Source of the DNA: Hygrocybe punicea
Lineage: Eukaryota > Basidiomycota > Agaricomycetes > Agaricales > Hygrophoraceae
Reading direction: 5' to 3'
Length of the DNA stretch: 64,000 bases
Assembly (NCBI GenBank): GCA_963556145.1
Contig: OY744472.1
Span: forward strand, 4,650,001 to 4,714,000
Each line of letters starts with the position of its first letter. Position 1 is the first letter of the stretch. Under the pieces are notes generated by a model. The model was not told the DNA's origin. It did not search any database and worked only from the letters and a program-made list of their open reading frames with translations. Shown one piece after another: positions 541-62,860 of this stretch. Both the position numbers and the translations under genes were made by a program.

Positions 541-1120
541 ACTGCCACTAGTGTTGCCATGGCTCGGTCTGGCTCGGCTCAGCTACGGCTAACAACGGCT
601 AACCCATATATGGGTTGTTAGCCGGACCAGACCATTGTGGAACAGCTAAACCGCGGTTAGCCATCCAAAAAAGAAAATTAATAGTGGACAACCACCAAGG
701 TCACCAATCTCACCACACAAACATGCGGAGCACACCAGTGACACCACGCCAACAGCCACAGCCACACCAGCTCACGACAATGCAGGCCAACCCAAAACAA
801 AGGCCAATGGCGACCAGCAGAGGGGCGAGGAATGAAGCAGCAACGTGCCCACTCCCACTATGTCATTTCTTGAATCTTTGTTTTTTTTTTACTACCAACT
901 TATTTCTGATTACAGCACAAATTATCTCGAGGCAACAGCCGCCTGGACAGCAGCAGCAATGACCAATGACCACGGCGATGGCAAACAGCAGCAGTGGCAA
1001 CGATGGCAACAGCACTACATCAAATGAGGTGACTGTCATTTTGTTGTGATTTACTTCCCCAGTTCATCGGGCAGCCTCCGTTGTCCTTACCTGTCGCTTT
1101 CAACTGCCCACTGCATGCCA

Positions 1121-2010
1121 CACCTCGTTTGGACTGATAACTTCTGGCCGGGGCTGCCCAATCGCACATCCCTTCACTTTGCACCCCCCCACCTCCTCCA
1201 AGCTTTGTTCGGCGGTTCCTGCTGCTGCCTCCCACTGATATTGAGCACACACGGCATCTTTGAACCCCCCACACCTCGTTTCACATCAAAATGATAGGCC
1301 GGTGCCAGCCAATCGCGCGTGCCATCACTTTGCCCCCCCCACCTCCTCCAAGTTTTTTTGGGTGGTTCCTGCTGCTTCCCCCCAGCGATTTCGACTATCC
1401 ATAGCACCTCTTAATTCCCTGCACCTCGTTTGGCTCGAAAATGACAGGCTGGGGCTGCCCAATCGCCCACGCCATCACATTGTCCCCCCCAGCACCCCCA
1501 AGTTGTTTTCGGCGGTTCCTGCACCTTCCACCCACCGATTTCTACCACCCACGAGATGGCACAACGCCCCGCACCTCGTTTGGCCGGAAATCGACAGGCT
1601 GGGGCTTCCAAATCGTGTGCACCATCAATTTGTCCCCCACCCCCTTGCTAAGTTTTTTCAGCAGTTCCACCTGCCGATTTCGACCAGCCACGGCATGGTA
1701 CAATCACCCGCACCTCATATGGCCTGAAAACGACAGGCTGGGGCTTCCCAATCGCATGCACCATCAATTTGTCCCCCACCCCCCTGCTAAGTTTTTTCAG
1801 CAGTTCCTGCACCTTCCACCCGCCGATTTTGACCACCCATGGCATGGTACAACCCTGCGCACCTCGTTTAGCCCACAAACAACAGGCTGGCGCTTCCAAA
1901 TGGCCCGCACCATTAATTTGTCCCCCACCCCCCCCTCAAGTTTTTTCGGTGGTTCCTGCACCTTCCAGCCGCTGATTTCGACCACCCATGACATGATCCA
2001 AACCCCCGCA
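1121..2010. repeat. 150-bp tandem repeat inside hAT-1, about six copies
   Basis: The anchor word CACCTCGTTT, or a close variant, occurs at 1121, 1272, 1422, 1572, 1711 and 1860, with a degenerate copy near 2009. The spacings are 151, 150, 150, 139, 149 and 149 bp. Each unit also carries GGGGCTGCCCAATCGC-like and GGCGGTTCCTGC-like words. Long open frames here are a by-product of the repeat and are not taken as genes. Confidence 0.85.
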
Positions 2011-2137
2011 CTTTGTATGATGACACCGACACCGACAACTGCTGTCATGACAACAATGACCATGACAACAACGACCATGACGACGATCGTTCTGCAAATT
2101 TACTACCATGTCTCGCCTCCCTCAATGGCGGCTTCTC

Positions 2138-2409
2138 TCTCCTTTGCTCATCTCGGAGGCGAGGACTTTTACAACTGCGTTATCGACCATCTTGTCAAGG
2201 CGTACAAGAAGAAGACAGGTACTGATGTGTCGCTGAACTTGAGCGCAATGGGCAAGCTCAAGCGCGAGGTCGAGAAGGCTAAGCAGATGTTGTCAGCAGT
2301 CAACGAGGATCGAAATCAAGTCGTTCAAGGATGGCAATGACTTTTCGGAAATTCTTACATGGGCCAAGTTTGAGGCTTAATATGGATCTATTCAGGAAGA
2401 CAATGAAAT
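2138..2409 (+). pseudogene. KAR2: captured fragment of ER Hsp70 (BiP/Kar2)
   Basis: In frame from 2138 the sequence reads HLGGEDF, then VIDHLVKAYKKKTG, then GKLKREVEKAK. These are conserved in the Hsp70 nucleotide-binding domain, and the YKKKTG and KREVEKAK wording favours the ER form (BiP/Kar2) over cytosolic Hsp70. After a frameshift near 2308 the match continues with RIEIKSF, GNDFSE and AKFE, and after another shift with LNMDLFRKTM, ending near 2409. Only about 90 of roughly 670 residues are present, with two or more frameshifts, so it cannot be functional. It lies just inside the right half of hAT-1 and is best read as host gene capture by the transposon. Confidence 0.87.
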
Positions 2410-2743: not shown

Positions 2744-3160
2744 AGTGTCACCCTCATGTGACAGTGTGGGCATGATGGCAGGACCATGGCAGCAGTGGCA
2801 CTGTGGCAGCAACTACAACAGCAATAGGAGCAGCAGCCCTAGGAGTGGCATGACAAAGAAGCTCGACTTTGATAGTGAGGACAGGGACAAGGATCAGGAC
2901 TATAACAATCACATAGATAGGGATGAGGTCAGTGAGAAGATAATGTGGACACAGATGGCAACAATGAGAATGATGAGACAACAGGGACAAGAGCAAGAAC
3001 ATAAGACAATGGGTGACAGGGAAGACAGGGACAGGAAAAACCAGGACAACAGGGAAGGGGACTGGAAAAAAATAACAGGTATGTCAATGGGAATGTGGAT
3101 AAACACAATGTATGTACATACAGACATTCCCCCTGCTTGCCCCTGCTCCCCCTCATTCAA
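2744..3160. other. purine-rich low-complexity sequence, no gene accepted
   Basis: An open frame on the plus strand encodes mostly D, R, N, K and Q runs from GACAGGGA-like repeats (2870-3060). It has no recognisable domain. It is the continuation of the 1-540 flank after removal of hAT-1. Confidence 0.4.
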
Positions 3161-3748
3161 AGCATTGAATGGATTTTGTTGTGTGAGCACAGTCATACAG
3201 ATACAATGGTTTCAATGAGATGACAGTCAAACCATTGAATCCATTTGATTGAGTGAACACAGACATACAGATTAAATGGTTTCAATGTGATGAGATTAAA
3301 ACCATGGAATCCATTTCATTGATTGAACACAGTCATACAGATTCAATGGTTTCAATGAGATGACATTCAATCCATTCAATCCATTTGATTGGTTGAACAT
3401 AAAGATTCAATGGGTTCAATGAGGTGGCATTCAAAGTATTCAAACCATTTGATTGGTTGAACACAGTCATACAGATTCAATGGTTTCCATGAGTGCACAT
3501 TCAAAGCATTCAATCCATGGCATTGGTTTCATCACAGTCATACAGATTCAACAATTTCAATGGATGACATTCAAAGTATTGAATCCCTTGCATTAGTTTG
3601 ATCACAGTCATACAGATTCAATTTTCAATGAGGTGACATTCAAAGCATTGAAACCATTTTATTGGGTTGAAAACCATACAACCTCAATCCTTTGAATGAC
3701 ATAACAATCAAATTGTTGAATCCCCTCTATTGGTTTCAACACATTCAT
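3160..3748. repeat. minisatellite, about 70-bp unit, about eight copies
   Basis: Each unit contains a CATTCAA..CCATTTGATTG segment followed by GAACACAGTCATACAG and ATTCAATGGTTTCAATGAG. Units begin near 3164, 3234, 3304, 3374 and 3438 and run to about 3745. The unit is AT-rich and diverged. The array resumes as a partial unit at about 4499-4550, after the foldback element, so the foldback element inserted into the array. Confidence 0.8.
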
Positions 3749-27299: not shown

Positions 27300-28035
27300 C
27301 CGGATTGGTTGCTCTGGGAAAAGGGGATCCATGAGGAGCTTGAGATGCTTTGGTAAGTGGGAACCTGGGATTTAGTGGACAAACCTGAAGGAGCAAACAT
27401 TGTTGGGTCAAAGTGGGTTTTTCGTGCAAAGAAGGATGCTGCCAGTGTTATAGTTAGACACAAAGCCCGCTTAGTCGCTCAAGGTTTTTCGCAAGTTCCC
27501 AGGGTGGATTATTTCAATACTTATGTGCCTGTCACCAAGCTCACCTCTGTTCATATGATACTAACCATAGGTGCCCAGTTAGACCTGGAAATGCATCAGA
27601 TCAACATCAAAGGAGTGTATCTCAATGGAGAGCTCAGCAATGATGAAATCATATATATGAAACAACCACCAGGCTACCATGCACTCAATTCCGTTGGAAA
27701 AGTCTGTCGCCTAAACAAAATGTTGTATGGACTGAAGCAGAGCAGCCATCATTGGTACCAAAAGCTTGTTTGTATCCTAGTTGATAACCTTGGATTCAAA
27801 CACTGTGAAGTCGATCAAGCCGTGTTCATACTCAGAGTTGACAATGAATTCACGATAATAGCCATCCATGTGGATGATTGCACCATTGTGGGAAACTCCA
27901 TTCAACTCATCAACAATGCAAAAGCTGGTATACGCAGATTCATTGAAATTTCTGATTTGGGCAAGTTACATTGGCTCCTGGGGATCAAAATCCATCAAGA
28001 CAGGGACACGAGGACCATTCACCTCTCACAATGAT
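27300..28035 (+). pseudogene. Copia-2 reverse transcriptase
   Basis: After the TRIM insertion the frame reads PDWLLWEKGIHEELEML, a stop (TAA near 27354), then VGTWDLVDKPEG and SKWVFRAKKD, and RHKARLVAQGFSQ. The first catalytic region reads QINIKGVYLNG where QMDVKGAYLNG is usual, so a catalytic Asp is Asn. MLYGLKQSSHHWY follows. The second site reads IHVDDCTIVG, intact. It continues to GKLHWLLGIKIHQD and stops at 28032. Confidence 0.93.
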
Positions 28036-28097
28036 TGTACATCAATTCAATAATATGATGATTCAATCTTGAAGACTGTAAGCCAACATCCACACCA

Positions 28098-28690
28098 ATG
28101 GACACTCAGGTACATCTCACCTCATCCCAGTCACCCTCAACCACACATGAGTTTGCTATCATGCATGATGTCCTGTACCTTGAGGCCATCGGATCCTTGA
28201 TGTGGGCATGTCTCAGTACACACCCAGACATTGCTTTCACCGTGACGACACTATCCAAATTCTCCAAGAACCCCAGTCCAGTGCATTGGGAGGCTGCCAA
28301 GCATGTTCTCTGGTATCTCGCCAGAACCACTCACCTTTGGTTGTCCTACAGTAACACCAAGAATGGTCTGATATGCTATGCTGATGCTGATGAAAGCATG
28401 GCAGAAGATCGGTGTGCCATCAATGGCTATGCGTTCATCTTAAATGGGGGAGCCATATCCTGGAGTTGTAAGAAACAAGATATAGTCTTGTTGTCATCGA
28501 CAGAAAGCGAATACATAGCAGCTATGCACGTGGCCAAGGAAGTGCTTTGGCTGTCACTCATATCCCAAGTTTTCAGACCCATTACTTGCCCAACGACACT
28601 CTTCTCCAACAATCAATCCACGATCGCCCTATCGAAGAAACATCAGTACCATGCACACACCAAACACATAGACGTTGATATGCACTCACC
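28098..28690 (+). pseudogene. Copia-2 RNase H, 5' part
   Basis: It shows GSLMWACLSTHPDIAF, HWEAAKHVLWYLART, CYADADESMAEDR (first acidic site), SWSCKKQDIVLLSSTESEY and NNQSTIALSKKHQYHAHTKHIDV. It is cut at about 28690, just before the usual RYHFIR. The remainder lies at 34521-34680. Confidence 0.92.
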
Positions 28691-29178
28691 CACGCTGACC
28701 ACTGAATCAACAAATTGAACAGGTTCCAGCTATCCTTAAAAATGAGCCTGAGATGTTGCGACTTCGCGATGGCTCGCGACCGCTCGTGCGACCTCTCGAT
28801 CATATCGCAGACATCTCTGACAAAGTTGCGGACCAAGAAAGAAAACCTTCAAATCGGATCGAGCCCCGGACTCTCGCATAATCATTCGCCTTTCATATCG
28901 CAGTGCCCCATTTCAGCTTAGATAGACTAACCCGTTTAGAACACTTATTCCATTTCTTCCACCAGACTCCTTTGTCCATCCTTTGTTACAAGATCACCTT
29001 CATCCTCCTTTCAGCACTATTTTTGGCTACGTTTTCATGTGATTCATACATATTCCTTTCTTTCAACCCCTATTAGAGTAAAGTTTCTTTCTCTCCACGC
29101 CTTTCTACTTCGCCTCCAATCTCCGACCATTGACATATAAAATAGCTATGTAGAATACACTTAATAACAAGAGAGCGC

Positions 29179-29791
29179 TGTAGAGGCTCCGGGCCCTCTG
29201 GACCCGAATCCTCTTCATATCCCACTTCGTCCTCGTCCATTCCCATTCACGTATCATCGATTCCGCCCGTTTACGGTCTTTTCCGTCGATTCCGCTCCGG
29301 ATTCCGCCTCCGGAATCGTTCATACTCAAGATGCGATGTCTCTAACGACCCGGAATCAGTACGTATATAGTTACATATGATATATCTTCGTTTCCTGTTA
29401 CTTAGTACATAGCACCATTCCCCCTATACTCCGCTCCACCTCTCTACCATCAGTTACAGCCTTCGCTTGTAGTACATAGTTACTACAGCACAGGATCTCT
29501 CCCAGTAGTATAAAAGATGTACCCTTATACTACAACCTATATATTATCATATCCCACCATATCATATTACATCCTATCGTATTGCATCCCTTCAGTTCTA
29601 CTTCTTAGTCCTCGCTTCGTATCATCTCATTAGTCTTCGTACTCCGCTCCCTTCACTTCCCCTCTGATCCAGAACCCTGGATTCGGGTTGGATTGACTAG
29701 ACTATAGAAAATAAACTCCTCTGATCACTTCTTAGCTGATCACCCTTTCCGTAGATTCCCATTCGGGTCTACAACCACACTCGCCGTCACA
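29179..29791 (+). repeat. Gypsy-like 5' LTR (613 bp)
   Basis: Contains TATAAAAG at 29509-29516 as likely promoter, and an unusual run of ATCATATCCCACCATATCAT at about 29547-29566. Confidence 0.92.
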
Positions 29792-29793
29792 AC

Positions 29794-29810
29794 TGGAGCC
29801 CACCGCGAGG
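29794..29810 (+). promoter_or_regulatory. candidate primer-binding site of the Gypsy-like element
   Basis: TGGAGCCCACCGCGAGG begins two bases after the LTR, as expected for pairing with a tRNA 3' CCA end. The donor tRNA was not identified. Confidence 0.55.
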
Positions 29811-29985
29811 AGTTTATTTCTTTTGTCTTTTCATACCCTCCCCACCGTCGGGTTGGACTTTCATGACGTTTCCCTCTTCTACCCGACTCTAGTTAGTTAG
29901 TTTCGCTTACGACTTCGACCTCGACCTCGAACCTCCTTGACCCGACCCGCTTTCCGACCCGCATCCCGATTTAGACATTCCCGAT

Positions 29986-32568
29986 ATGACGACCGGATTC
30001 ATGCCTCTCCGAGGTGATCCCTCAGCCCCGACATTCGACGGAAACGAACTCGACCTTCCCCGCTTCTTTGACGAAATTGACATGCTCGGCTCCGACTGTG
30101 GACTCACGGACGCTATGAAGATTCGCTACACGCTACGGTACCTCAACAACGACGATTACGAACTCTGGTCGACACTTCCCGCCGCTTCCGCTAAAGACTT
30201 CATCGCTTTCCGACGTGCCGTCTTCGACTTTTATCCCGGTGCTACGAATTCCATCCGGTATACGATCTCGGATCTCGATCAACTTACGCGACGACAATCG
30301 GCTTATGGTATAGAGAACAAAGCGGACTTAGGACAATATTTCCGGGATTTCATACGCATTTCCGGTGTCTTGTTTGACAACGGCCGTCTAACGGATAAGC
30401 AACGGAACACATACTTCGCCAATGGATTCGACTCAGACCTTCGTCTACGTATTGAAGAACGCCTCCATTACCTTCTTCCCGACCATTACCACGACGATCC
30501 GTACCCGCTCGATGTTTTCCACGATGCCGCCTTATTCCTACTTTCCGGTTATCGCTCCGTTCCGAAATCCCCTTCCCTTGCCGTTACCATCTCTAGTCCC
30601 GATTCCGGTCCCAGTCCCCCACCCGTCATAGCTTTGTCATCTCCGGTCCCGATTCTGACCTTGATCCCGCCCACCGTTGTTCGTTCCGTCGCCCACGTTC
30701 ATTCCGGTCCTTCGTATACTCCGTCCCCGTCATCGTGTTCCCCGTCCCCGTCCATTCCGGTGCCCGTCGAGACCGTTATTTGTTTACAGGTTTTGACGTC
30801 CAGTCCCGTGCCGTCCCCGTCCGATCCCATTCCCGATTTATCGATGCCGGTCACCGATTTATCCAATTCGTTTCCTTTTTCATCCCCGTCGTCTTCGGAT
30901 TCGTCCCCTCCGGTTTCCGTCCACGAACTCGTACCGGACCCGCTCCCATTGTCATCGGATTCTCCAGAAATAGACATTCCGCCCCCGATATTGTCGCCAT
31001 ATTGTCCTCCGTCACCGTCTATTGGGATTCCGTCGACTTTGGTTGAGTATTCCGTACCCGTTCCCATTCCAGACCCCATTCCTCCCCTTTTATCTGATTT
31101 CGATTCCGGTCCCGGTTCCGTTATGTCGACCCCTTCGTTCCCGGTTCCCCTCGTCGTTCCCGCTCCCGTATCGTCTCCGGTTCCCTCCTCGCCCACTTGG
31201 GGCACTTTGTCGTTTCCGCCCGCTTGGGGCACCCCGTCGTCTTTAGACCCGTTACGCGGCACACCCATTATATGGGATCGTGTTGGTGTCGGCACTCCGG
31301 TTCTCAATTTTATTTTATTCCTCGTTTCCGTCTTCATTCTACTTTGTGATCGCATTCTGGACCTCCGCCCCCTCGACACCTCGCTCGAATATTTGCAAGA
31401 AGTTCTCCGCCTCCTCTCGTCGTTCCGCCTCCAACCTTCTTTCAGAAACTCTTGTGGGGATGTAGACCCGTTTCCGTCTCCTATTTTTGCGTTTTCGTCT
31501 TCCGTTCCGCTTTCCGTTCACGCTCCCGGCCTCCACTTATTTATATTTTCGTTTCCGTTTATAGTTTTCCTTGTTTCCCGTTTGTTTCGATCCCATTCCG
31601 TGTCCGTTGTATTCCGGTCCCGCCCTCCACCTCGACCTCCAGATTCTGGCTTATGTAGTTACCCGTTTCTCCCTTTCCGTTATAGATTTTATTATGTACT
31701 CATTTTATTTTTATGTACATTGTCCCGCGGTTCGGTTCCCCTCCTTTTCCGTCCATTTCCCTTCTACTCCCTTCTCCTTTCGTCGAGTTTTGTGTCGATC
31801 ATGTCGAGTTGGCCAAAGATATGGGCCTGGTTCGCGCGTAGTCGATTTAGCTCCTGCGTCCAACGGGTTAGCTTGGTGTGGACCTCCGCGACGTATTCAG
31901 AGAGGCCGTCCGCAATCGTCGATATCTCCCTTTGCGTTTCCGTCGCCATCTTGCGTACTGCCCGGACGTGGTCGTTGATTCCGGCTCCGATCCGCGGGTG
32001 CTTGAACGGATTTCCTCGTCTCCCTTCGTCCCGCTCCGATTCCGTATCCGGTTCGACGTCGGTCAACGTCCGCTTACTCGTCGACGCCTCTCCGGTCCGC
32101 AACCTAGGCTTCCTCACGGGCTTTGGTATCTTCTTCGCGATGACCTTTCTCTTCGGACTACCCGCCTTCGCCTTCCCTTTCCTTTCCGCTTTTCCGGATC
32201 CGGTGGCCGGTCCCTTCATCAACAATCCGCAACGTCGTTTAAGTCTTTTGCACCGATCGCACGCGTATCCCTCGATTCCGCGACAAACCGCGTTGGCGGT
32301 CACGCACGCATCGCATTGCCGGATACGGAACAACTGCATGTACTACGGATTAGTTAGGCACCACGGATATACGAGTCCGCGAGATATCACTTACCCCCGG
32401 AATCTTTCCCTTCGGTTCCGCGTCCTCGTTCCCGCTCGCATTCGAGAAATCGTTGCCGCTGTTGTAGTCCCCGTGAATGGTCTCGTCGTCCCGGTTGACC
32501 CTCTTATCCCGGTTGAGCTTTTTGTGTTTGATCGCGTTGAGTGCTTGAAGCCGCTCGTATTTTCGTAG
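29986..32568 (+). CDS. gag-like protein of the LTR element
   Basis: The first 195 residues look like a fungal LTR-element gag: PTFDGNELDLPRFFDEID, MKIRYTLRYL, YELWSTLP, RRAVFDFYPGA, LGQYFRDF, and DLRLRIEERLHYLLPDHY with DDPYPLDVFHDAALFLLSG. It would form the virus-like particle coat. After residue about 200 the frame is a Ser/Pro/Val-rich stretch, and from about 31764 it lies opposite the antisense gene, where its openness may be only a shadow of that gene's codon use. The true C-terminus is therefore unsure. No CCHC zinc knuckle, protease or polymerase domain follows. Confidence 0.62.
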   Translation: MTTGFMPLRGDPSAPTFDGNELDLPRFFDEIDMLGSDCGLTDAMKIRYTLRYLNNDDYELWSTLPAASAKDFIAFRRAVFDFYPGATNSIRYTISDLDQLTRRQSAYGIENKADLGQYFRDFIRISGVLFDNGRLTDKQRNTYFANGFDSDLRLRIEERLHYLLPDHYHDDPYPLDVFHDAALFLLSGYRSVPKSPSLAVTISSPDSGPSPPPVIALSSPVPILTLIPPTVVRSVAHVHSGPSYTPSPSSCSPSPSIPVPVETVICLQVLTSSPVPSPSDPIPDLSMPVTDLSNSFPFSSPSSSDSSPPVSVHELVPDPLPLSSDSPEIDIPPPILSPYCPPSPSIGIPSTLVEYSVPVPIPDPIPPLLSDFDSGPGSVMSTPSFPVPLVVPAPVSSPVPSSPTWGTLSFPPAWGTPSSLDPLRGTPIIWDRVGVGTPVLNFILFLVSVFILLCDRILDLRPLDTSLEYLQEVLRLLSSFRLQPSFRNSCGDVDPFPSPIFAFSSSVPLSVHAPGLHLFIFSFPFIVFLVSRLFRSHSVSVVFRSRPPPRPPDSGLCSYPFLPFRYRFYYVLILFLCTLSRGSVPLLFRPFPFYSLLLSSSFVSIMSSWPKIWAWFARSRFSSCVQRVSLVWTSATYSERPSAIVDISLCVSVAILRTARTWSLIPAPIRGCLNGFPRLPSSRSDSVSGSTSVNVRLLVDASPVRNLGFLTGFGIFFAMTFLFGLPAFAFPFLSAFPDPVAGPFINNPQRRLSLLHRSHAYPSIPRQTALAVTHASHCRIRNNCMYYGLVRHHGYTSPRDITYPRNLSLRFRVLVPARIREIVAAVVVPVNGLVVPVDPLIPVELFVFDRVECLKPLVFS

Positions 32569-33322
32569 TTGTTGGTTGGACCAGGTGTCCTCCTCATCCT
32601 CGCTTCCGTGATCGCTGGTTTGTGCAGTCTCCTCCTGGTCCCTTTCCGCGGCTGCATTATCCCTTTTTGCTGCCTCTGCCGCCTTCGCCCTTTCCGCCTC
32701 CTCGATCCGCTTCTCCGCCTCCGCCCTCCTATTCATCTCCTCTTCATATTGGCGCGATTCCTCCGCCCGTTGCCGCTCGATCCTTTCCGCCTCCTTGATC
32801 CGCTTCTCCGCCTCCGCCCTCCTATTCATCTCCTCTTCGTATTGGCGCGATTCCTCTGCCCGTTGCCGCTCGATCCTTTCCGCCTCCTCAACCCGTTGCC
32901 TCCTCGCTTCCTCCTCCTTTTCCTCCTGCAACCGTACAGCTTCCCGACGCCTCGCCTCTTTCCGTTCCCGTTCGTAGTCCTCCCAGCTCCGCAACCACTC
33001 CTCGACCTCCACCACCATCTCTCCGCCCATCGAGAAATCCTTCAGTTCCGTCACGTCGATTCCGTTGTCCTGGATTTCCGCCAAGATTCCTCTGTAGTTC
33101 CGCTGCCGGGTATCGTTAGTCCGTGCCGTTTACGGGAACGGGAACTCTTACCATGGCCCGTCGTCGTCTCACCACCCATTGCCGTGCTTCGTTCTCGAAT
33201 CCGTCGCGTACGATATCGATTCCGGCCGCGTCGACTTCTAGTAACTCAGCTACGGCGCTCTCAAAATCTTGCCGCGTTTCCGCATCGAGAGTAGTGAGGA
33301 ATTTGTTGTATTCCGTCGACAT
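31764..33322 (-). CDS. antisense passenger gene: coiled coil plus Zn2Cys6-like cysteine cluster
   Basis: Three exons join without stops: 33322-33152, 33102-32395 and 32342-31764 (485 residues). The introns are 49 bp (GTAAGA..GGCAG) and 52 bp (GTAAGT..CGTAG), both phase 0. Exon 1 encodes a small acidic helical start (MSTEYNKFLTTLDAETRQDF). Exon 2 is dominated by a long charged coiled coil with a repeated 35-residue unit (RRAEAEKRI, EAERIERQRAEESRQYEEE, twice). Exon 3 opens with a cluster C-x2-C-x6-C-x7-C-x2-C-x6-C followed by KRLKRRC-type basic residues, exactly the spacing of fungal binuclear zinc clusters. A Lys/Arg-rich linker and a second helical segment follow. DNA binding in the nucleus is an inference from spacing only. 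It lies wholly inside the LTR element and opposite its gag. The start at 33322 is chosen as the ATG nearest the conserved-looking start; an upstream ATG at 33463 is in frame. Confidence 0.75.
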
Positions 33323-33653
33323 TTGGTGTTGGTGTTTGTTGGGTTTGTTGGGCTTGTTGAGGATGTTGTCGAGATTGTTGAAGTCGCGTTGAAAAGTTTT
33401 CTTGTTTGTATTTGTTGCCCCGTCACGTGACCGTTGTTCCTTTATCCAGCCGTTTCGCCCCACCCTCTTTTAGTAGCTCTGGACCACTGCTTCCCGACGC
33501 TTCGATACCCACCGGCTTCGACTCCGCTCACGTTGTACTCCCTTTTCCGTCCGTTTTCGACATCGCCTCCGCGCATTTATTCCCACGACCCCGGTATCTT
33601 TGTTATTTCGTATGGATCGACCAGGGATGGTCTCTATCTGAGTCCTGACCGGA

Positions 33654-34266
33654 TGTAGAGGCTCCGGGCCCTCTGGACCCGAATCCTCTTCATATCCCAC
33701 TTCGTCCTCGTCCATTCCCATTCACGTATCATCGATTCCGCCCGTTTACGGTCTTTTCCGTCGATTCCGCTCCGGATTCCGCCTCCGGAATCGTTCATAC
33801 TCAAGATGCGATGTCTCTAACGACCCGGAATCAGTACGTATATAGTTACATATGATATATCTTCGTTTCCTGTTACTTAGTACATAGCACCATTCCCCCT
33901 ATACTCCGCTCCACCTCTCTACCATCAGTTACAGCCTTCGCTTGTAGTACATAGTTACTACAGCACAGGATCTCTCCCAGTAGTATAAAAGATGTACCCT
34001 TATACTACAACCTATATATTATCATATCCCACCATATCATATTACATCCTATCGTATTGCATCCCTTCAGTTCTACTTCTTAGTCCTCGCTTCGTATCAT
34101 CTCATTAGTCTTCGTACTCCGCTCCCTTCACTTCCCCTCTGATCCAGAACCCTGGATTCGGGTTGGATTGACTAGACTATAGAAAATAAACTCCTCTGAT
34201 CACTTCTTAGCTGATCACCCTTTCCGTAGATTCCCATTCGGGTCTACAACCACACTTGCCGTCACA
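33654..34266 (+). repeat. Gypsy-like 3' LTR (613 bp)
   Basis: Paired with the 5' LTR, same length, one visible difference; TATAAAAG at 33984-33991. Confidence 0.92.
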
Positions 34267-34520
34267 GCGCACCATTCCCCCCTTCCCACTTCATTATATC
34301 TCCCTCGAAAATCATCACGACATTACTTTCTTCGAGCTCAACCATCGCCGACTTTAGTTCAATACCTTGACCTTCTATCGTTGTCGCGACTTTAATCACT
34401 AAGTCGCACCATCAATCGCAATCGTCGCGATACTTGTAGAGGCTAAATACTTCACTTACTCGTAATTGCACCAGTTGAAGAGTGTTGTTTTGTAGTGCAC
34501 AGCACCTCGACTAGCGTATC

Positions 34521-61602: not shown

Positions 61603-62860
61603 TAGTGTTGCCGTAGTTCGGTTCCGAACCTAGCCGAACCCGGTTCAAACCCCGAACCGAACCCTAGGTTCAGTCCAAGTTCAGCCAAATGCTGAACCGG
61701 ACCGCAGGTTCGGTTCAGGGTTTCGAGGCCGGCCGGATTTCCTGAACGGCTCCAAACCGCGTCCAAACCGCGAACGCGGATATTTTTATGGTATTTATTT
61801 CATTTGTTTTTCGTATATCTTTACTTACTTTTTCGTCTTCAACGGGATCATGTGACCATTACAAGAATGTTTCTTCACCAACAACAACAACGCAAGGCCA
61901 ATGAACGTGACACAATGTCGCGTTCATGGACACAGGTAAGTCTCTTCAATTATTTTAACTTTACTAATGTTATCTGTTACAGGAAACTCGACCGCGACCA
62001 CATCGCGAGCACACCACTGCAGCACAAAATGGATCCCAACGCCAACGCAATGCCAATGGACGCGGGACAGCCGCAAAACCACCACCACCACCACCACCAC
62101 CAGCGGTGGCAACCAAGCAACGACGACGGCAACGGCCAGCGGCAGCGCCGGCAGCAACGGCAGCAGCAGCAGTGACAGCAGCAGCGGCAACAGCAACAGC
62201 AGCAGCAGCAACGCCGGTAGCAGCAACGCCGGCAGCAGCAACGCCGGCAACAGCAGCAGCTGCTGCTGCATCAAGCCATCCAACACCAATGGACGCGGGA
62301 CAGCTGCAACACCACCACCACCGGCGGCAACAACAATGGCAACGACAACCACGATGGCCAGCAGCAGCAGCAGCAGCAACAGCGGCAGCAGCAACGGCAA
62401 CAGCAGCAGCGACAGCAGCAACGGTGGCGGCAGCAGCAGCAGCAGCAGCAGCAGCAGCGGCAGTGGCAACGGCAACGGCCACAACAGCAGCAGCAGTGGC
62501 AGCAGCAACGGCCACGGCAGCAGCAGCAGCGCCGGCAGCGGCAGCAACAGCAGCAGTGGCAGCGGCAGCAGCAGCAGCAGCAGCAGCGCCGGATGGCTCC
62601 CCCGCAGCCCAACTACCTCGCGAAGTGTAGCGCCGTATCAATTGATACGCGCCTGCCATTCGCAAGGAGAACGGAGCTCATGGGGTGAGCCCACCTCGGT
62701 CCGGGGTTCAGACCACGTCTGAACCCAGACCGAACGCGGAGAGACGGTTCGATGCTGTCCGGGTCCAGGTTTGGCCATGCGCCAAACCGGACCCAAAGTT
62801 CAGTTCGCGGTTCCGCCAAAAAGGCTCGGAACCGGACCGAACTGAACTTCGGCAACACTA
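61603..62860. mobile_element. hAT-8: non-autonomous hAT element with GCA repeat core
   Basis: The ends are TAGTGTTGCCGTAGTTCGG and, inverted, TAGTGTTGCCGAAGTTCAG. The perfect 8-bp duplication is CCAGTGGG (61595-61602 and 62861-62868). Subterminal arrays of GGTTCGG/CCGAACC words cover about 130 bp at each side. There is no transposase. It belongs with hAT-1, sharing the first ten bases of the TIR. Confidence 0.92.
62080..62590. repeat. GCA/CAG trinucleotide-rich block
   Basis: About 500 bp of imperfect GCA repeat with ACC at the left edge. It gives long open frames of Ser, Ala, Gln or Leu in five of six frames, none taken as a gene. Confidence 0.88.

Follow-up and report, generated by a model that had tools for sequence, protein, structure and literature searches.

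An antisense gene with conserved predicted introns in three LTR retrotransposon families of Hygrocybe punicea

Organization of the LTR element and its antisense gene

The window analyzed here is a stretch of 64,000 nt from Hygrocybe punicea (GCA_963556145.1, contig OY744472.1, positions 4,650,001-4,714,000 of the forward strand), and all positions are those within this stretch unless another numbering is named. It contains an LTR element of 5,088 bp with a predicted gene on the minus strand. The features are as follows.

29175..29178 and 34267-34270, unstranded: target-site duplication GCGC, identical 4 bp on either side
29179..29791, plus: 5' LTR, 613 bp, TG...CA
29794..29812, plus: probable primer-binding site, starting TGGAGCCCACCGCGAGG (from sequence; no tRNA assigned)
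29986..30561, plus: gag-like domain (sample of 192 codons), its frame continuing into a Pro/Ser-rich stretch
30562..31763, plus: spacer or gag tail with low constraint (in the gag frame, shared variants have an N/S at 0.89 of expectation)
31764..32342, minus: exon 3, with cysteine cluster, basic linker and C-terminal helix; stop at 31764-31766 (spliced frame; conservation)
31770..31991, minus: one long helix predicted at the C terminus, probably forming a coiled coil (single-sequence AlphaFold2)
32229..32315, minus: cysteine cluster C-x2-C-x6-C-x7-C-x2-C-x6-C, the six Cys present in 24/24 copies and in three families
32343..32394, minus: intron 2, predicted, 52 nt, phase 0, GTAAG...TAG
32395..33102, minus: exon 2, charged, coil-like, repeat number variable (spliced frame; copies compared)
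32689..32874, minus: tandem repeat of 93 nt (31 codons) in exon 2, two copies (from sequence)
33103..33151, minus: intron 1, predicted, 49 nt, phase 0, GTAAG...CAG
33152..33322, minus: exon 1, ATG at 33320-33322 (spliced frame; conservation)
33323..33413, minus: CAA-rich low-diversity stretch, likely the antisense 5' leader (18 copies compared)
33424..33429, minus: E-box CACGTG, 107 nt upstream of the ATG; putative promoter element for the antisense gene (conserved in copies)
33654..34266, plus: 3' LTR, 613 bp

The two LTRs have one difference between them, in agreement with the earlier note on this DNA, which had taken them to be nearly identical. Target-site duplications of 4 bp could be identified in three of six full-length loci examined (GCGC, CCGC and GTGG; L003 and L006 included), where the reading covered one strand only and the three loci without a match were those in the opposite orientation. 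The primer-binding-site pattern occurred at 229 sites of the genome at up to three mismatches, versus 0 for a reversed control. The gag-like domain had no match in Pfam, and was 39% identical to a frame of L069, a pol-bearing element of the same genome (271 aligned positions, tblastn E 5e-62). When gag was compared with solved structures, one short candidate match to P22 (entry 8h2i, residues 109-147, E 3e-4) had no stretch that passed alone, and homology was not accepted; the structure model of gag had a mean pLDDT of 39.5. No pol could be found in the element: four further internal frames had no Pfam match at E ≤ 0.01, and a separate Pfam search of frames inside the element gave no pol match. 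The element is classified as non-autonomous, with LTRs, primer-binding site, gag and the antisense gene and without pol.

On the minus strand, three exons separated by two GT-AG introns form a frame of 485 codons plus a stop, with coordinates, introns and frame as the earlier note had described them; splicing is predicted from the sequence. The ATG is internal to the 3' LTR, 332 nt from its boundary.

Conservation of the antisense frame among copies

The spliced antisense frame was compared in 24 distinct copies, which were drawn from the best-scoring loci and thus form a sample biased to well-preserved copies. Fourteen were intact from ATG to stop, two had one premature stop, five were frameshifted, two lacked the 5' end and one had an insertion in exon 3. 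Among the copies with both ends, the ATG, each of the four splice dinucleotides and the stop were present in 22/22 (13 TAG and 9 TAA stops), and 40 of 93 interior intron sites varied in the same 22 copies, the chance that none of the eight splice bases would vary being 0.015. Among the matches listed for the window family, gag lay on the opposite strand, at most 3 kb away and in the expected arrangement, at 104 of 131 exon-3 places, exon 3 was present at 104 of 150 gag places, and 94 of the 131 exon-3 places were free of stops over the matched stretch. One locus considered as a pol-bearing partner (C8:6195560-6199760) turned out to be a copy of the window family, with other sequence interrupting its gag.

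For variants occurring in at least 3 of the 24 copies, the antisense frame had 69 N to 83 S changes versus an expected 2.13:1, that is, 0.39 of expectation (p=9e-9). The value was 0.26 for exon 3 and 0.28 for exon 1, and exon 2 by itself was under weak constraint (0.64, p=0.08). This level of conservation is similar to that of other element proteins, both in shared-variant N/S (0.42 of expectation for gag, p=7e-4) and in identity to L069 (40% for exon 3, 39% for gag), and the spacer had 0.83-1.05 of expectation over six frames. Singleton variants in the antisense frame (0.72 of expectation) mostly reflect post-insertion decay. Natural selection seems to preserve the antisense gene. It had been proposed, with the refuting observations specified beforehand, that the gene travels with the element, and its frame, intron positions and purifying selection were indeed kept across copies.

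The functional product might instead be a non-coding antisense RNA, the open frame then having no role of its own or mirroring the sense gag frame, whose third codon positions it shares. The gag-frame extension is open to 32568 in the window copy, and over the exons the sense frame was depleted to a comparable degree (0.47). However, changes silent in only one of the two frames favored the antisense frame, both for shared variants (11:5 versus 40% expected, p=0.02) and for singletons (17:7, p=0.003); the two frames are separated solely by these 16 discriminating shared sites and the comparison of families. Furthermore, among 36 projected rows, from 33 distinct copies, the sense frame first stops at 31810 in 10, earlier in 14 and nowhere in the stretch covered in 12, and the pol frame of L071 ends at 1584, before reaching the antisense stop at 1794 (L071 numbering). 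With the antisense ATG and splice dinucleotides also invariant, we regard a non-coding product as very unlikely.

Homologous genes in two pol-bearing families

A homologous antisense gene was found between pol and the 3' LTR in two pol-bearing families, L069 and L071. In the numbering of each element, L069 has an integrase-like ORF at 3000-3509 (minus) and the antisense gene at 731-2216 (plus), and L071 has a pol frame up to 1584 (plus) and the antisense gene at 3181-1794 (minus). Identity to L069 and L071 was 42% and 32% for exon 1 and 40% and 30% for exon 3, respectively, with scores exceeding all 300 shuffles. GT-AG introns of 60 and 46 nt (L069) and of 55 and 52 nt (L071) could be placed at the two homologous phase-0 positions; these splice sites were placed by eye with homology as a guide, and L071 offered other AGs. 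In the L069 copy analyzed, exon 2 contains a stop.

In Pfam, the pol of L069 had RNase H above the cut-off and integrase core and protease below it, its RT core being unmatched, and L069 was not among the matches listed for RVT_1 across the genome, with 150 of 594 candidates scored. Its gag was recognized by similarity, and its LTR pair is 99% identical over 432 bp. The 3' part of L071 had Integrase_H2C2 (integrase zinc-binding domain) above the cut-off and integrase core below. Exon 3 lay downstream of RT, on the opposite strand and within 4 kb, at 11 of 13 L069-type RT places (18 of 19 exon-3 rows entered) and at 75 of 81 L071-type RT places (133 of 150 rows entered, one unpaired place matching a row not entered). 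The numbers of exon-3 places were at least 131 for the window family, 18 for the L069 type and 150 for the L071 type.

By its sequence, the antisense gene is an accessory gene common to at least three diverged families of this genome, two of them with pol. The minus frame belongs to the LTR elements, as the earlier note had supposed; the description of it as a passenger finds no support. A host gene captured recently and neutral to the element would fit the size of the introns, which resemble ordinary fungal introns, a short size class. Nevertheless, homologues with introns at the same positions occupy the corresponding place in three diverged families, and shared variants are under selection. 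We therefore rejected a host-gene origin in its strong form and consider a recent passenger extremely improbable. The argument that antisense introns survive in such elements fits all three families: the introns would not be removed at transposition because the sense genomic RNA carries them in reverse, and, unspliced there, they would be copied each time.

Cysteine cluster, predicted fold and upstream region

Zn(2)-Cys(6) domains have the spacing C-x2-C-x6-C-x5-12-C-x2-C-x6-9-C, with basic residues in the first half-motif. The spacing of the cluster agrees with this, and that part of the Zn2Cys6 label given in the earlier note stands. The rest of the label fits less well: KRLKRR, the basic run, falls in the later half of the cluster and not in the first, and the scores for Zn_clus (PF00172) were 15.7 bits for the window exon 3, 13.3 for the whole window protein and 14 for the L071 exon 3, versus a gathering score of 21. 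The match was restricted to the second half of the six-cysteine motif, and the L069 exon 3 had no Zn_clus match. Across the three spliced proteins, Pfam at E ≤ 1 gave this sub-threshold Zn_clus alone, bZIP being absent. In the single-sequence AlphaFold2 model of exon 3, residues 118-191 are helical (block pLDDT 86-98). No relatives could be found in the protein database at E ≤ 0.01 with the full protein, residues 288-485 or a three-sequence profile; a sequence search of the PDB produced four matches, all weak (E 0.19-0.81), to the CpxA sensor and a designed protein among others, and a fold search with the structure model gave nothing at E ≤ 0.001 (best E 8.4).

One possible role is that of a helper in integration or nuclear entry, the protein entering the nucleus with the integration complex and tethering this complex to chromatin. 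A basic linker adjoining the cysteine cluster and a predicted long C-terminal helix are consistent with such a role, as is the co-occurrence of the gene with gag in a pol-less family. However, Pfam and PDB sequence searches found no known tethering domain, and we consider this reading by itself unlikely.

Upstream of the gene, pairwise differences in the CAA-rich stretch were 0.014-0.027 per 30-nt block versus 0.043 over the 5' flank as a whole, in 18 copies. The motif GTCACGTGAC was kept in 17 of 22 copies, and CACGTG alone in one more. CACGTG, a motif picked after inspection and not beforehand, is also present 92 nt (L069) and 91 nt (L071) upstream of the homologous ATG. Inverted half-sites of the CGG type were weakly enriched in the LTRs of the window element (4 versus 1.2, reached by 22 of 500 shuffles) and of L069 (4 versus 1.0, reached by 9 of 500).

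The gene is convergent with gag/pol, tail-to-tail, and the antisense protein or its transcription might act as a brake that represses sense transcription and limits copy number, as the antisense products HBZ and APH of HTLV repress LTR activation, according to the available text of PMC3185765. On the other hand, the families bearing the gene are abundant, as the counts of exon-3 places show, and one might expect individual lineages to have lost a gene that limits its own spread. We thus consider a brake unlikely.

Proposed function and significance

The explanation that we prefer, and hold to be somewhat probable, is that of a resident accessory gene of a Ty3/gypsy-type LTR lineage, antisense to gag(-pol), which is expressed from its own promoter as a spliced mRNA and encodes a nuclear factor for its own element. 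This promoter would lie immediately internal to the 3' LTR, and the host would transcribe the gene and splice its RNA. The protein, composed of an N-terminal module, a charged coil, the cysteine cluster, a basic linker and a C-terminal helix, may act in the nucleus as a nucleic-acid-binding and probably dimeric factor, its most likely role being to set LTR transcription or to help the integration complex. The function we favor, though unproven, is nuclear regulation of transcription or integration of the element. The window element would be a pol-less member retaining gag and the antisense gene; because both are under selection in this family, a benefit to the element is favored over a mere passenger. 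The antisense gene has the appearance of one long established in the element, with a helper or control function, and not of a recent passenger.

More tentatively, it is possible that a Ty3/gypsy-type clade has retained, through divergence to 30-40% protein identity, an antisense gene with introns whose product is a nuclear factor with a cysteine cluster, that this factor is needed even without pol, and that it is an independent counterpart of HBZ/APH. If so, the antisense strand would be the one on which a gene with introns can persist in a retroelement, the case showing that introns can be carried without being lost, and the function of an antisense accessory gene would have a tractable test. 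Within one genome there are about 300 exon-3 places in three families, with selection acting on the antisense frame, and one of these families carries gag and the gene without pol. Since the introns are fixed, a spliced antisense mRNA would be unmistakable in RNA-seq, and together with the three families, the selection and the pol-less family this makes accessory-gene function directly testable.

Comparison with known systems

The earlier note had expected a new kind of cargo, but antisense accessory ORFs were already known in plant Ty3/gypsy elements and fungal Boty. In the available text of PMC7264820, such ORFs (aORF-3R) lie between pol and the 3' LTR in plant Grande, RIRE2 and Retand and in fungal Boty, their function is described in reviews as unknown, and the Grande gene23 product is nuclear; brtn is cited in the available part of PMC8365987 as an additional antisense gene of Boty-like elements in Botrytis cinerea. 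As far as PMC7264820 and PMC11963269 were available, the plant genes (Grande gene23, RIRE2, Retand ORF4/TRP28 and PvRetro13 ORF2) resemble the window gene in position and orientation, in occurring in most copies, in being conserved like other element genes and in a suspected nuclear or DNA-binding role; the Grande ORF has its own promoter, and some Retand elements are non-autonomous. The available parts of these two sources make no mention of introns. Unlike the plant genes, the window gene has a six-cysteine cluster and two conserved introns, belongs to a fungal host and lies between gag and the 3' LTR of an element without pol.

The brtn gene of Boty-like elements in Botrytis cinerea was reportedly described by Zhao et al. 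in 2011. It is alike as an antisense additional gene of a fungal LTR retrotransposon, a likeness drawn by description only, from partly available sources. Within the partly available literature searched, no intron-bearing antisense gene of a fungal LTR element was reported, although brtn and gene23 may have introns (Zhao et al. 2011; Gomez-Orte et al. 2013).

According to the available text of PMC3185765, HBZ and APH of HTLV are antisense, nuclear, made from spliced transcripts and repress Tax-mediated transcription. HTLV-1 HBZ/APH thus resemble the window gene as retroelement antisense genes with a nuclear product and a spliced transcript (predicted for the window gene); for HBZ, however, the start is in the 3' LTR and the product is of the bZIP type, whereas the window ATG and promoter-like block are internal and the protein has no bZIP match in Pfam. 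APH proteins, unlike HBZ, are without a bZIP domain. With PF00172, the window protein shares the six-cysteine spacing and a helix after the cluster, and it differs in the sub-threshold score, the half-motif match and the position of the basic residues.

Gag-only non-autonomous LTR elements are known as TR-GAG/LARD. They have LTRs, a primer-binding site and gag without pol, as in the window (for LARD, available text of PMC3411680, which makes no mention of antisense genes). The window element differs from them in having a selected antisense gene as well. The antisense accessory ORF is a kind of gene already known, and conserved introns, a cysteine cluster and a promoter-like block set this one apart as a distinct variant.

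The element and its antisense gene

The stretch corresponds to positions 4,650,001-4,714,000 of contig 40 in a genome of 92.2 Mb assembled in 42 contigs. Intron size and the types of element point to a fungal host, probably a basidiomycete. The stretch carries an LTR element and, on the opposite strand, a spliced gene, for which the exon and intron coordinates in the earlier note proved exact on re-reading:

29179-34266: LTR element, LTRs of 613 bp with one difference between them, flanked by GCGC on either side
from 29986, plus (sense) strand: gag-like frame
33322-33152, 33102-32395 and 32342-31764, minus strand: three exons of the antisense gene, 485 codons, with GT-AG introns of 49 and 52 nt

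A primer-binding site probably lies 3' of the 5' LTR, and a Pfam search of the internal frames found no pol domain. In this copy, the gag frame is open for 875 codons (29941-32568) and reaches into the antisense exons; among 36 projected rows (33 distinct copies), its first stop is at the position of 31810 in 10. Directly upstream of the element, 27357-28718 holds a Copia-type reverse transcriptase (RT) frame (27357-28034; Pfam RVT_2), then a second frame. Tandem repeats at 1121-2011, 3154-3671 and 62078-62587 consist of ∼150-bp and ∼70-bp units and a CAG-rich array.

Copies and linkage

Searches of the same genome gave at least 46 matches to the element DNA (25 of 842 candidates scored), at least 108 to the antisense protein (88 of 1,100) and at least 151 to gag (150 of 692). 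From the loci of the antisense protein search we took 24 distinct copies of the gene, a sample skewed to well-preserved ones. These copies keep the antisense frame and its intron sites, as the earlier note's idea of a gene travelling with the element would have it: the spliced frame is intact from ATG to stop in 14 of 24, and the 22 copies that have both ends agree in the ATG and in each of the eight splice bases. Every one of the 22 has a stop codon, while inside the introns 40 of 93 sites vary. Length differences in exon 2 among the intact copies are always a whole number of codons. The damaged ones comprise two with a single premature stop, one with an exon 3 insertion, five frameshifted and two lacking the 5' end.

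Among the 131 window-family exon 3 places listed, 104 had an opposite-strand gag place no more than 3 kb upstream, at a median gap of 1,216 bp, and at two a gag place within 4 kb shared the strand of exon 3; conversely, 104 of 150 listed gag places had a matching exon 3. The 27 unpaired exon 3 places include C8:6195030, whose gag is interrupted by other sequence. At C35:1851882-1871540, five gag and five exon 3 matches recur at a regular spacing of 4,334 bp, in what looks like a tandem array of elements. Another copy (C7:5064463-5071067) sits between two more distant LTRs, 75-76% identical and opposite in strand.

Selection on the antisense frame

Variants among present-day copies were divided into singletons and those shared by at least three copies (variants in exactly two were omitted), and nonsynonymous to synonymous ratios (N:S) were set against an expectation that included the observed CpG bias, with no ancestor reconstruction. 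Singletons mostly represent decay after insertion, whereas shared variants have been carried through transposition. Over all exons minus the repeat, shared variants gave 69:83, or 0.39 of expectation (p=9e-9), and singletons 143:93, or 0.72 (p=0.02), where p values take sites as independent and the mutation spectrum is estimated from the same data. By exon, the shared values were 0.28, 0.64 (p=0.08) and 0.26 for exons 1, 2 and 3, and one shared stop was found versus 5.1 expected. Gag was similarly constrained (33 copies, shared variants at 0.42, p=7e-4), and the spacer lay at 0.83-1.05 whichever of the six frames was read.

Over the antisense exons, the remaining frames were at 1.29 or more, with one exception: the sense frame whose third positions coincide with those of the antisense frame (0.47); gag produced a comparable mirror effect (0.46) on its opposite strand. 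Sites silent in just one of the two frames were mostly silent in the antisense frame (11 of 16 shared, p=0.02; 17 of 24 singletons, p=0.003; 40% expected), which decides between the two in favour of the antisense frame.

Related pol-bearing families

Sites sharing the primer-binding sequence but without a listed gag led to a pol-bearing element, L069 (C2:3371300-3380900), whose LTRs show 99% identity across the 432 bp read. Pfam placed RNase H above the cut-off and integrase core and protease below it, and gave no match to the RT core; the gag region is 39% identical to window gag. An antisense homologue, with one exon 2 stop in the copy read, lies on the opposite strand between integrase and the 3' LTR. 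A second pol-bearing family, sampled by its 3' part only (L071), has an RT region 76-78% identical to that of L069 over 81 places, many with open frames of 1,257 codons. L071 carries the antisense gene without a stop, and exon 3 of this family occurs at no fewer than 150 places, 131 of those listed being free of stops by eye count.

For exons 1, 2 and 3, the window protein is 42, 28 and 40% identical to that of L069 and 32, 37 and 30% to that of L071, and all exon alignment scores beat 300 shuffles. Phase-0 GT-AG introns can be fitted to one shared pair of codon boundaries in the window element (49 and 52 nt), L069 (60 and 46 nt) and L071 (55 and 52 nt). Because we positioned the L069 and L071 introns by eye, using the homology as a guide, the agreement counts as a strong fit and not as an independent prediction.

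No more than 4 kb downstream of RT, an opposite-strand exon 3 was present at 11 of 13 L069-type and 75 of 81 L071-type RT places, a pairing that took in 18 of 19 and 133 of 150 exon 3 rows, respectively; of the six L071-type places left unpaired, C7:5043983 matches an omitted row. Near a contig start, C39:5092-225248 oddly shows nine RT matches in frames of 1,089-23,230 codons reported as open. Where the 3' LTR starts, the three families have a similar block with GACCAGGGATGGTC-like sequence (window 33617-33675, L069 429-478, L071 3314-3374), perhaps the region of second-strand priming.

Putative promoter and LTR motifs

The antisense ATG is preceded by a CACGTG box at a distance of 107, 92 and 91 nt in the window family, L069 and L071; dinucleotide shuffles had it at 85-115 nt in 27, 32 and 14 of 3,000 cases, motif and range being picked post hoc. 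Its ten-base form is kept in 17 of 22 window-family copies, and the 91 nt 5' of the ATG are CAA-rich with little diversity (18 copies). In the LTRs, CGG...CCG half-sites were weakly over-represented (matched by 22 and 9 of 500 shuffles) and the TCCGGA count was reached by 11 and 72 of 500, which amounts to no more than a hint.

The antisense protein

All six cysteines of exon 3 are present in 24 of 24 copies, even those with frameshifts, and in all three families. Non-majority residues per codon were lowest in the cysteine cluster (0.58), followed by the linker (0.91) and C-terminal helix (1.37). Pfam Zn_clus scored 15.7 bits with exon 3 and 13.3 with the whole protein against a cut-off of 21, covering only the second half, and at E ≤ 1 the three spliced proteins had no match to any other Pfam family. 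Single-sequence AlphaFold2 predicted a 74-residue C-terminal helix in exon 3 with high confidence and gave no confident fold for the cluster.

Interpretation and precedent

On the best reading, the antisense gene is an accessory gene resident in the element lineage. Reverse transcription would copy sense genomic RNA carrying the antisense introns reversed, hence unspliceable, so that they would persist; the same intron positions in three families are consistent with such persistence. The pol-less family keeps both gag and the antisense gene under selection, which suggests that the antisense product serves its own element. From the cysteine cluster, basic linker, helix and analogues, we infer a nuclear nucleic-acid-binding role, be it activating, repressing or targeting.

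Among the papers listed by our literature searches, the primary ones on brtn (fungal Boty-like elements) and gene23 (plant Grande) aside, none was seen to describe conserved introns in a fungal antisense gene of this sort. Antisense accessory ORFs of LTR elements have precedent in PMC11963269, and brtn is named in PMC8365987 and PMC4227169. Thus, this kind of gene is already known, and the window gene is a variant thereof.
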